Below are positions 58,070 through 61,387 of a stretch of 64,000 nt of DNA, piece after piece. Within the stretch, counting starts at the first letter, position 1. Each line of letters starts with the position of its first letter. Made by a program: the position numbers and the translations under genes. The stretch covers positions 154,908 through 218,907 of the forward strand of contig JAIBDZ010000002.1 in the NCBI GenBank assembly GCA_024685975.1, read 5' to 3'. The notes under the pieces were generated by a model that worked only from the letters and a program-made list of their open reading frames with translations, did no database searches and was not told the DNA's origin. The stretch is from Piscirickettsiaceae bacterium (GTDB lineage Bacteria > Pseudomonadota > Gammaproteobacteria > Nitrosococcales > Methylophagaceae).

Positions 58070-58948
58070 ATGGCGAGCGGCTTATTACTTGTTTTAGATG
58101 ATATTGCCTTGTTACTAGATGATACGGCGGCACTCACTAAAGTTGCAGCCAAAAAGACGGCAGGATTATTAGGTGATGATTTGGCTGTCAATGCTGAAAA
58201 AGCGACGGGGTTTAGTGCCTCACGTGAGTTGCATGTCTTATGGGCGATTACAAAAGGTTCACTGTTAAATAAGCTGATTATTCTGCCGCTAGCTTTTCTA
58301 TTAAGTGCTTTTTTACCGCAATTGATTGTGCCTATTCTATTAGTTGGTGGTGCTTATTTAAGCTATGAAGGTGCAGAAAAGATTGTAGAGTGGCTATTTC
58401 CTCACGCGCACTTACATCAGGTTCATGCAAAACCCAATTTACTCAGTACAGAACAATTGGCAACGTTTGAACAGACTAAAATTAAAGATGCGATTCGAAC
58501 TGACTTTATTCTATCCATAGAAATTATTGTTATTACCTTGGCGACAGTGATCGGCCAAACTTTGCCGATGCAGATTGCCGTTGTCAGTGTGATTGCCTTA
58601 TTTGCCACCATTGGAGTCTATGGTTTGGTTGCCTTAATTGTCAGAATGGATGATATGGGCTTATCGTTGATTCAACAATCCAAACAGCAAAGTGGCCTTA
58701 TCGCTCAACTCAATCGTCAGGCCGGACACTCGCTCATCGCCCTATTACCTAAGCTTATCCGCATATTAGAAGTCATTGGTACTATTGCGATGTTATTAGT
58801 CGGCGGCGGTATGTTTGTTCATAATATCGACTGGGTTCATTCCCTTGTCCATTTCTTGCCCAGTTTATTAGCTGATTTAGTCTGTGGCTTAGTCGTTGGA
58901 GCAGTCTTGGTATGCATCATGCATATTGTTAAAAACAAGTCAGCTTAA
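58070..58948 (+). CDS. DUF808 family membrane protein (YedI-like)
   Basis: A 292-aa inner-membrane protein of unknown function identified by MASGLLLVLDDIALLLDDTAALTK at the N-terminus and LLGDDLAVNAEKATGFSASRELHVLW. About six membrane helices. AAAGAGA lies about 9 nt before the ATG. Followed by a c-di-GMP aptamer that has its own promoter. Confidence 0.9.
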   Translation: MASGLLLVLDDIALLLDDTAALTKVAAKKTAGLLGDDLAVNAEKATGFSASRELHVLWAITKGSLLNKLIILPLAFLLSAFLPQLIVPILLVGGAYLSYEGAEKIVEWLFPHAHLHQVHAKPNLLSTEQLATFEQTKIKDAIRTDFILSIEIIVITLATVIGQTLPMQIAVVSVIALFATIGVYGLVALIVRMDDMGLSLIQQSKQQSGLIAQLNRQAGHSLIALLPKLIRILEVIGTIAMLLVGGGMFVHNIDWVHSLVHFLPSLLADLVCGLVVGAVLVCIMHIVKNKSA

Positions 58949-58982: not shown

Positions 58983-59013
58983 TTGACCTAACATGATTAT
59001 ATGACAGTATAAT
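58983..59013 (+). promoter_or_regulatory. Candidate promoter for the c-di-GMP riboswitch RNA
   Basis: TTGACC (58983-58988), a 19-nt spacer, then a perfect TATAAT (59008-59013), placing a start near 59020, about 15 nt before the aptamer. The spacer is longer than the optimum of 17. Confidence 0.5.
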
Positions 59014-59035
59014 GACAGTTCAAGTTATAACAACA

Positions 59036-59116
59036 ACGCTTTAGCCAAACTTGGTGTGAACCAAGGACGGAAAGCTACAGGTCTTTTTATCCTGTATAAA
59101 AAGATGGCTGGGCTGC
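59036..59116 (+). ncRNA. c-di-GMP-I (GEMM-I) riboswitch aptamer
   Basis: The core reads AGCC-AAAC, then a perfect stem CTTGGT/ACCAAG closed by a GTGA (GNRA) tetraloop, then GGACGGAAAGC, then CTACAGGTC with a second arm TCTTTTTAT/ATAAAAAGA, and GATGGCTGGGCTGC closing the base (AGCC/GGCT). This is the GEMM-I layout of two parallel arms with a tetraloop and its receptor and the conserved GACGnAAAGC. It is followed by a terminator. No co-directional gene lies downstream within the window. Confidence 0.87.
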
Positions 59117-59123
59117 AAAATAC

Positions 59124-59153
59124 AAAAAACCCGCCAATGGCGGGTTTTTCTTT
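59124..59153 (+). terminator. Terminator of the riboswitch RNA, bidirectional with ahpF
   Basis: AAAAAACCCGCC, AAT loop, GGCGGGTTTTT with a TCTTT tail, 8 nt after the aptamer. The symmetrical A/T flanks let it also end ahpF transcription from the minus strand (ahpF stop 24 bp away). Confidence 0.93.
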
Positions 59154-59176: not shown

Positions 59177-60739
59177 TTACGACGCTTCGCCGTCTTGTCT
59201 AATCAAATAGTCAAAAGCACTCAATGACGCTTTAGCCCCATCCCCCATCGCAATGATAATTTGTTTATATGGTGTCGTTGTCACATCACCAGCAGCAAAC
59301 ACACCATCCATTGAGGTCCGCGCATGGTCATCAACTTCAATCTCGCCATATTGGCTTAATTCGACTGAGCCTTTTAACCAGTCTGTATTTGGCACCAAAC
59401 CAATTTGAACAAACACAGCCGATAAAGCGATGCGGTGTTCTTCGTCAGACGCGCGATCAAGATAGACTAACTCTGTTACTTTACCATCAGCCCCTAATAC
59501 TTCCGTACTTTGAGCATTGGTCACCACTGTCACATTATTTAAGCTAAACAATTTTGTTTGTAAAACCGCATCGGCTCTTAAGTTTTCAGCATATTCTAAT
59601 AAGGTGACATGGTTCACTAAGCCAGCTAAATCAATCGCCGCTTCAACACCGGAATTACCACCACCGACAACAGCAACATCTTTACCTTTATATAAAGGAC
59701 CATCGCAATGTGGGCAATAAGCAACGCCGTGACCACGGTAAGTATCTTCACCGGGAATGCCTAATTCACGCCATTTAGCACCGGTCGCTAAAATAATCGT
59801 CCGGCTTTGTAATAACGCGCCGCTTTCTAACTCAAGCGTCAATTGACCCTCTTTAGTCGTTAGCGTTTTAGCCCGTTGCAGGTCCATGATGTCAACGCCA
59901 TAGCCTTTAACTTGTTGCTCTAATGCTGCGGTCAATTTAGGACCATCTGTTTCTTGCACAGAAATGAAGTTTTCGATCGTCAATGTGTCCATTAATTGGC
60001 CACCAAAACGCTCTCCCACCATACCGGTACGAATACCTTTACGTGCAGCATAAACCGCTGCCGCAGAAGCCGCAGGACCACCGCCTACAATCAACACATC
60101 AAAGGGATCTTTACGGTTAATTTTTTCGGCGACTTTGGCCTCAGCACCACTGTCTAATTTGGCGACGATTTCTGGTAATAACATCCGGCCTTGACCGAAG
60201 ACTTCACCATTTAAATAAACCGTAGGCACAGACATGATTTCACGCTGTTCAACTTCTTCAGGGTATAAACCACCATCAATCATGACGTGACTGATATTCG
60301 GGTTTAATATCGACATCATATTAAGCGCTTGAACAACATCGGGGCAGTTCTGGCATGACAATGAAATATATGTTTCAAAATGATAGTCACCGTCTAATGC
60401 TTTGATTTGCTCAATCGTATCTTCATCCAATTTCATTGGATGACCACCAGAGTGTAATAACGCTAAGACAAGTGACGTAAATTCGTGTCCCATTGGAATA
60501 CCAGCAAAACGTACATTCGCCGCTTTTCCAGAACGCGCAATAGCAAATGATGGGGTGCGTTCACTCGCATCATCTGATTTGCGTAAAGTAACCAACTGAG
60601 ACATTGTCGCAATTTCTTCAAGCAATTCACGCATTTCATTTGACTTGTCGCTGTCATCATAAGATGCAATCAACTCAACGGCATTCGTCAAATTGCCTAA
60701 ATAGCTTTTTAATTGGGTTGCGATATTTGTTTCTAACAT
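59177..60739 (-). CDS. ahpF: Alkyl hydroperoxide reductase subunit F
   Basis: A 520-aa NADH-dependent flavoprotein that reduces AhpC. N-terminal double thioredoxin-fold domain with [10 protein letters not shown], then a TrxB-like half: FAD motif [17 protein letters not shown], redox centre [11 protein letters not shown] motif [16 protein letters not shown], and C-terminal [15 protein letters not shown]. It follows ahpC after an 81-bp gap that holds a strong hairpin. Confidence 0.96.
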
Positions 60740-60820: not shown

Positions 60821-61387
60821 TTAGATTTTGCCGACAAGATCTAATGAAGGTGATAATGTTTCATCACCTGGCTGCCAAGAAGCAGGGCAAACTTCGCCTT
60901 CATGTGTTGCAATGTATTGTGCAGCTTGTACTTTACGAACAAGTTCTTTCGCACTACGGCCAATACCTAAGTCATGAACTTCAGCAACTTTGATCATGCC
61001 TTCTGGATCAACAACGAAAGTACCACGAAGTGCTAAACCTTCTTCTTCAATCATGACATCGAAGTTTCTGCTGATAACACCAGTAGGATCACCGATCATT
61101 GGGAATTTGATTTTAGCAATTGTGTCAGACGCATCATGCCAAGCTTTATGTGTGAAATGCGTATCAGTTGAGACTGAATACACTTCAACACCCATACCTT
61201 GAAGCTGCTCATAATGATCAGCAAGATCGCCTAATTCTGTAGGGCAGACGAAAGTGAAGTCAGCAGGATAGAAGAAAAATACTGACCATTTTCCTTTTGC
61301 ATCAGCATCAGAAACACTGACGTCTTTGCCGTTTTGGTAAGCAGTTGCGTTAAAAGGTTTGATCTCTGTATTAATTATTGAAGACAT
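60821..61387 (-). CDS. ahpC: Alkyl hydroperoxide reductase subunit C (2-Cys peroxiredoxin)
   Basis: A 188-aa typical 2-Cys peroxiredoxin: peroxidatic Cys in FYPADFTFVCPTELGDLADHY, resolving Cys in GEVCPASWQPGDETL, and GGLG-type region replaced by DPTGVISRNFDV, all as in enterobacterial AhpC. It is upstream of ahpF in the usual order. Confidence 0.97.
   Translation of the reverse strand: MSSIINTEIKPFNATAYQNGKDVSVSDADAKGKWSVFFFYPADFTFVCPTELGDLADHYEQLQGMGVEVYSVSTDTHFTHKAWHDASDTIAKIKFPMIGDPTGVISRNFDVMIEEEGLALRGTFVVDPEGMIKVAEVHDLGIGRSAKELVRKVQAAQYIATHEGEVCPASWQPGDETLSPSLDLVGKI

Follow-up and report, generated by a model that had tools for sequence, protein, structure and literature searches.

The window analyzed here, a stretch of 64,000 nucleotides from a Piscirickettsiaceae bacterium, carries a c-di-GMP-I (GEMM-I) riboswitch aptamer that is followed at once by a strong terminator and then by a convergent gene. 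Comparison with related genomes gives good support to the view that this is a stand-alone c-di-GMP-I RNA that has been maintained. The aptamer, the terminator, the absence of a co-directional gene, and conservation beyond neutral expectation are all observed. The reading that we favor, with a confidence just short of even, is that the locus encodes a small RNA, with a promoter of its own and a ligand-independent terminator, and that this RNA most likely binds c-di-GMP as a buffer or decoy. The features of the locus are as follows.

58070..58948, plus strand: DUF808 family gene, co-directional and upstream (PF05661, E 1.2e-93)
58983..58988, plus strand: −35-like element TTGACC, from the sequence
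59008..59013, plus strand: −10-like element TATAAT, from the sequence, after a 19-nt spacer
59018..59152, plus strand: predicted transcript of ~130 to 135 nt, from the −10 box and the terminator
59034..59120, plus strand: c-di-GMP-I (GEMM-I) riboswitch aptamer (RF01051)
59125..59149, both strands: bidirectional intrinsic terminator with a CCCGCC-AAT-GGCGGG core, from a terminator scan
59177..60739, minus strand: ahpF, convergent (Pyr_redox_2 and Thioredoxin_3; stop at 59177)
60821..61387, minus strand: ahpC (AhpC-TSA)

The RF01051 covariance model matched positions 59034 to 59120 of the plus strand with 61.1 bits (E 1.7e-9; gathering score, 35), bearing out the full GEMM-I aptamer that had been claimed in the first-pass annotation. 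This was the top scorer among the 12 RF01051 matches in the window's genome (G000), a draft of 1.62 Mb in 23 contigs that is 68% complete. P2 with its GUGA loop and the core sequence were visible in the aptamer alignment, and the literature's G20 appears to be there as well. The TATAAT lies 22 nt upstream of 59036, at the position claimed, and the strong terminator described after the aptamer is the hairpin at 59125 to 59149, with 11 pairs, a 3-nt loop, and a T-run. Since this hairpin is terminator-like on the minus strand too, it can also close the convergent ahpF gene. None of 200 shuffles of the 135-nt RNA folded equally well (z −3.84); the MFE fold of the window RNA differs from the canonical GEMM-I fold, so ligand-free folding is a weak witness. 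Inspection by eye revealed no ORF with a ribosome site inside the RNA.

We found no co-directional gene 3′ of the RNA within the window. The plus-strand ORFs of at least 60 aa beyond 59153 are 63 to 92 aa long, and all except the last overlie minus-strand genes. When the longer of two overlapping ORFs is kept, the next plus-strand ORF lies ~6.4 kb downstream, in agreement with the earlier claim that no plus-strand gene is nearby. The converging gene had been named ahpF, and its two domains, with AhpC next in line, fit that name.

Such an arrangement was rare in a sample of 152 listed RF01051 matches from 39 genomes, 143 in the window's family and 9 outside it (41 of 95 genomes had matches, and the total is at least 152). 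On full loci, a following ORF was counted if it was on the plus strand, was at least 60 aa long, started within 120 nt, and was not half covered by a longer opposite ORF. By this rule, 145 of the 152 listed aptamers have a following ORF; the seven that have none are the window aptamer, its counterparts in two relatives (G003 and G012), G000:C18, G025:C17, and one each in G062 and G075. A looser count, made mostly with 300 nt of downstream sequence, gave 147 of the 152 listed, including a 61-aa TTG ORF that overlies the G012 helicase gene, and 133 of a subset of 141 listed matches had a plus-strand ORF within 100 nt. A terminator within 30 nt was found for 3 of the 152 listed aptamers (window, G003:C8, and G012:C16), all at the same locus, and at each of these the next gene is convergent, which is not the arrangement of a leader (cis) riboswitch.

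The other 11 aptamers of the window's genome (L093 to L099) sit a few tens of bases upstream of reading frames, and no terminator was found near any of them. The frame that follows the C18 aptamer (G000:C18:19407-19514, L099) lacks a usual start codon, having ATA after AAGGA, and is perhaps a decayed gene or one with an unusual start. Ten of the 11 downstream frames were readable as proteins, with signal-peptide-like N termini by eye, and their products are likely to be exported. Nine of these 10 proteins have a C-terminal VPxPAA tail that includes basic residues (PEP-CTERM type), and 1 has a variant of it; with NCBIfam, VPLPA-CTERM was above the cut-off in 1, PEP-CTERM/exosortase-type models were below the cut-off in 8, and 1 had no match. 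In Methylophaga nitratireducenticrescens, 4 of 7 leader c-di-GMP riboswitches are described as adjoining PEP-CTERM or VPLPA-CTERM genes (PMC12530212), and one riboswitch in strain GP59 is given a relative expression about twice that of its coding sequence (2,011 versus 936; PMC5918138). The window RNA shares with these leaders the aptamer class and, apparently, the bacterial family, but they precede a gene and it precedes none.

A wider scan of genome contigs for the P2 pattern returned 79 matches in 70 stretches. A strong terminator directly after the aptamer, together with a convergent gene, occurred only at L231 and L252, which are the G003 and G012 loci. Two stretches from Campylobacterota (L236 and L267) have a convergent next gene at ~195 nt and no terminator by the rule used; at L230 and L269, the first plus-strand ORF lies at 400 and 336 nt, respectively; and five stretches (L204, L229, L243, L255, and L258) ended too soon for the downstream side to be judged.

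At the G003 locus, the order is DUF808, aptamer, terminator, and then, convergently, ahpF, ahpC, and a gene that we take to encode a Rep-type helicase. In G012, the terminator is followed directly by the convergent Rep-type helicase gene, DUF808 and the aptamer lying ahead of it as before. Neither ahpF nor ahpC is at the G012 locus, and no AhpF ortholog was found in that genome (99% complete; best match, 35% identical). It follows that ahpF is not a required partner of the RNA. In the synteny comparison proposed in the first-pass annotation, aptamer and terminator without a downstream gene were kept in G003 and G012, and the ahpF partner is missing at the latter. G012 also carries two further, ordinary copies of the aptamer. 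A fourth genome, G013, has a degenerate copy that is convergent to ahpF and scored 33.4 bits with RF01051; no DUF808 match was found in G013. Convergent ahpF is therefore seen in the window, G003, and G013, and the gene immediately upstream is DUF808 in all three intact cases (G000, G003, and G012). DUF808 and ahpF face each other in G010 with no aptamer between them, and no aptamer at the Rfam threshold was found at the DUF808 loci of G021, G007, G006 (two loci), G001, and G010.

A unit model of aptamer plus terminator (R1) was built from the three intact copies, which score highest by construction (G003, 148.9 bits; G012, 147.4 bits; window, 129.2 bits). The informative part is the gap beneath G013, which scored 82.8 bits when all other listed matches in the 29 genomes of the genus reached at most 75.7 bits, and no additional listed match above 75.7 bits was found among 63 genomes of the order. 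A Rep tree that took 26 of the 29 genomes (G020, G024, and G028 had no full-length Rep) grouped the window, G003, G012, and G013 with G010, G018, and G022 in a seven-member fork, at a support of 91/91, which is below the starred level. G003 and G012 are sisters on this tree, and intact copies are known from three genomes only, two of them sisters.

The window was identical to G003 and G012, respectively, at fractions of 0.88 and 0.85 in the aptamer and 0.84 and 0.84 in the terminator hairpin, against 0.25 and 0.12 in the linker (8 sites), 0.39 and 0.45 in the upstream region, and 30 to 36%, near saturation, at four-fold degenerate sites of DUF808, ahpF, and rep (window versus G003 or G012). 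These are raw values from few species without base-composition correction, and because G003 and G012 are sisters, the window's comparisons with each are not two independent tests. Between G003 and G012 themselves, the contrast to neutral sites is smaller than that from the window (96% in the aptamer, 100% in the terminator, 75% of 12 linker sites, and 48 to 56% at four-fold sites). Two terminator pairs are altered on both sides in G003 and G012, from A-T to T-A and from C-G to T-A. The decayed G013 copy has 74 to 83% identity in the aptamer.

With aptamer and terminator identity so far above that of the four-fold sites, the unit appears to be a maintained element and not a relic. A remnant of a leader riboswitch of the ordinary kind, left behind after loss of its gene, might be expected from the ORFs that follow 145 of the 152 listed aptamers and from the decay of the G013 copy, but the identity of the window aptamer and terminator to those of G003 and G012 lies far above near-saturated neutral sites, with the caution that the two comparisons are not independent. 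This weighs against the unit being a relic in free decay in these three genomes, and we hold such an explanation to be very improbable. The suggestion made in the first-pass annotation that the regulated gene has been lost may describe how the RNA originated; as a description of a decaying relic, it does not fit.

A promoter-like pair, TTGACC and a −10-like hexamer, is present upstream of the aptamer at all four loci, including that of G013 without DUF808. In the window, TTGACC starts 60 nt before the AGCC of the aptamer (alignment column 33), and in G003, G012, and G013 it starts 43 to 44 nt before it (columns 47 to 48), placing the window pair ~16 nt farther upstream than that of the relatives. 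The spacers between the two elements, counted by hand, are 19 nt in the window, 17 nt in G003 and G013, and 18 nt in G012; being 19 nt, the window spacer caused its pair to be missed by a promoter scan set for 16 to 18 nt. Because the window TTGACC is offset from the relatives' place, the window pair is not taken as their aligned counterpart, and promoter conservation is demonstrated for the relatives only.

The promoter spacers of two relatives contain inverted repeats, one in G012 consisting of a C-run, TCTTT, and a G-run (L085 5860-5960) and one in G003 of the form GACCC...GGGTC (L083 1900-1960). These repeats were not seen in the window; they are possibly a regulator site or a product of chance.

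The same region bears on an alternative in which the aptamer is a 3′ UTR element of DUF808. The DUF808 mRNA would then run through the aptamer to the terminator, and c-di-GMP would alter its stability or 3′ processing, with the RNA released or not. A terminator scan of the plus strand found nothing between the DUF808 stop codon and the aptamer, and DUF808 adjoins the aptamer in all three intact cases and is unmatched in the genome with the decayed copy; this keeps the alternative alive, and the displacement of the window's promoter-like pair from its aligned place is in its favor too. It has to contend, however, with TTGACC and a −10-like hexamer at all four loci, one of them lacking DUF808, and with the aptamer-free DUF808 loci named above, and we consider it unlikely. 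The evidence supports the original proposal of a self-standing c-di-GMP RNA of ~130 nt, in that the unit recurs in G003 and G012 and, decayed, in G013, with a promoter-like pair and no co-directional gene.

The first-pass annotation had gone further and proposed that c-di-GMP controls readthrough of the terminator, yielding antisense RNA against ahpF-ahpC. Antisense-acting riboswitches have been put forward as a class, and the family most prone to this arrangement is that of the c-di-GMP riboswitches (152 antisense versus 2,554 sense); described members of the class include the ubiG SAM riboswitch of Clostridium acetobutylicum, the pocR cobalamin riboswitch of Listeria, and predicted c-di-GMP cases, and ahpF goes unnamed in the main text of the survey (PMC9943018). 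Like these, the window aptamer lies at the 3′ end of a convergent gene and is followed by a terminator, and the convergent gene is ahpF in G003 and G013 as well. Moreover, in the truncated window RNA, pairing is possible between the aptamer's GGCUGGG and the terminator's CCCGCC; in the truncated G012 RNA, the end of the terminator 5′ arm pairs with the leader, and that of G003 is partly paired. These alternative pairings nevertheless differ among the three orthologs, with none in common. A ligand-switched antiterminator was therefore rejected as a conserved mechanism, the folds of full and truncated RNAs giving a different 5′-arm pairing in each ortholog. The inner terminator pairs have a probability near 1 in all three orthologs, preventing the hairpin costs 16 to 23 kcal/mol, and terminator and aptamer do not overlap. 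Ortholog-specific pairings and a stable terminator leave ligand-gated readthrough into ahpF poorly supported. Unlike the described antisense-acting riboswitches, the window RNA and its orthologs showed no common antiterminator in folding and their convergent gene is not conserved, G012 having kept the RNA without ahpF. We regard antisense control of ahpF-ahpC as distinctly improbable, and the part of the annotation that aimed the RNA at ahpF found no support as a conserved role of the RNA.

A layout of promoter, aptamer, and terminator is also that of a trans-acting sRNA, which might base pair with a target through a site exposed or hidden upon c-di-GMP binding. The candidates for a seed among the unpaired parts, namely leader, linker, and P3 loop, are not the same in the window as in its relatives, however; no conserved seed is evident, and this makes such an sRNA rather improbable.

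A second, different set of such RNAs, often lacking a co-directional gene, was encountered in f35, another family of the same bacterial class, so that c-di-GMP-I aptamers with a convergent gene ahead of them are not confined to one lineage. In a phylum sample of 398 genomes, 34 with the RF01051 family (own genome included), we classified 63 matches outside the own genome. A terminator started within 60 nt in 6 of these, and the next gene was opposite or absent in 15 by the ORF rule, several of the 15 reflecting the limits of that rule. Six f35 matches from six genera (L340, L342, L349, L350, L351, and L369) have a common 3′ hairpin, GATATAGTGGGGGCTTRTC, and further down CTTTGC, mostly as CTTTGCGT, the complement of the aptamer core ACGCAAAG. 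A unit model built from these six matches scored above 100 bits in 34 of 118 f35 genomes; at E 1e-10, some match was found in 46 genomes, the weaker of which may be ordinary aptamers. Among 30 f35 loci (L403 to L432), 27 were classified, L404, L414, and L415 being left out because they did not match the motif; 17 have a convergent next gene and 10 a co-directional one, of which one is a doubtful 66-aa ORF. One convergent protein that we examined was a DUF885 protein, one co-directional protein had a GGDEF domain, and an Rfam scan of seven f35 loci matched the aptamer only. Unlike the window RNA, the f35 RNA has a platform that looks switchable, and it is the better candidate for gene control. 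Elsewhere, two tandem c-di-GMP-I-GGC aptamers stand in front of a 298-aa ORF (L363 and L377; G120:C36); after each of them comes a T-run hairpin of very high stability (−30.4 and −28.3 kcal/mol).

The occurrence of c-di-GMP-I aptamers in the genus was set beside that of GGDEF domains. G018 (1.5 Mb, 99% complete) and G022 (1.2 Mb, 84% complete) had neither a GGDEF match at E 1e-10 nor a c-di-GMP-I aptamer, and these two small genomes seem to have lost c-di-GMP signaling. The remaining 27 of the 29 genomes had 12 to 56 GGDEF matches each; even so, several (G011 and G015 are examples) lack a c-di-GMP-I aptamer, and the stand-alone copy is absent from G010, G011, and G015 despite their GGDEF matches, so the link to GGDEF is not strict. 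As the aptamer is absent without GGDEF but is also absent from some genomes with it, c-di-GMP seems to be necessary but not sufficient for the aptamer. In G003 (94% complete), which has 21 GGDEF matches, the stand-alone copy is the sole RF01051 match among all 118 candidates scored, a count that depends on an assembly of ~260 contigs. A buffer RNA in G003 could not, then, merely serve other riboswitches of the same class.

These observations are consistent with the following sequence of events. RNA polymerase would start at the RNA's own sigma-70-like promoter, make the c-di-GMP-I aptamer with a short leader, and stop at the strong, ligand-independent terminator, whose hairpin could end the convergent gene too. 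The product, of ~130 nt, would be almost wholly aptamer and terminator, and it would act by binding c-di-GMP, as a buffer or decoy, and not by switching a neighboring gene. A buffer or decoy is favored because the conserved parts are the ligand-binding domain and the end signal, which are all that holding c-di-GMP needs. For such a role, the RNA must be abundant. Transcription, ligand binding, abundance, and the buffering role are what we infer from the sequence. The narrower idea, that this is a dedicated c-di-GMP buffer RNA with a minimal aptamer, a promoter of its own, and a constitutive terminator, selected across species of one genus for setting the level of free c-di-GMP, is put forward more tentatively.

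We found one precedent for a c-di-GMP aptamer RNA without a gene, the merRNA of Bdellovibrio bacteriovorus, described as a massively expressed, c-di-GMP riboswitch-containing noncoding RNA of 445 nt (PMC3627812). Its authors proposed a reservoir or sponge role, which they presented as not yet validated, and reported no conservation outside the Bdellovibrio lineage (PMC3627812); in flagellar stator mutants, merRNA levels are reported to be lower (PMC11323537). The window RNA is like merRNA in being a c-di-GMP aptamer RNA without a conserved downstream ORF and unlike it in its length of ~130 nt, the likeness being drawn from aptamer and layout. With RF01051 leaders, the window RNA shares the aptamer class, but it has no cis gene. 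Among the open-licence PMC papers listed, we recognized no description of this locus.

Riboswitch aptamers are usually interpreted as switches of the next gene. Here, an RNA appears to have been retained over a time in which neutral sites became nearly randomized, without a gene to switch and with its convergent neighbor changed in one species. This is also a caution that an aptamer facing a convergent gene need not be an antisense regulator. The idea behind merRNA, of an RNA that buffers or stores a second messenger, becomes testable in a second lineage with a minimal RNA. If an RNA sponge does set c-di-GMP in these bacteria, models of signaling built from enzymes and protein receptors would miss a component.
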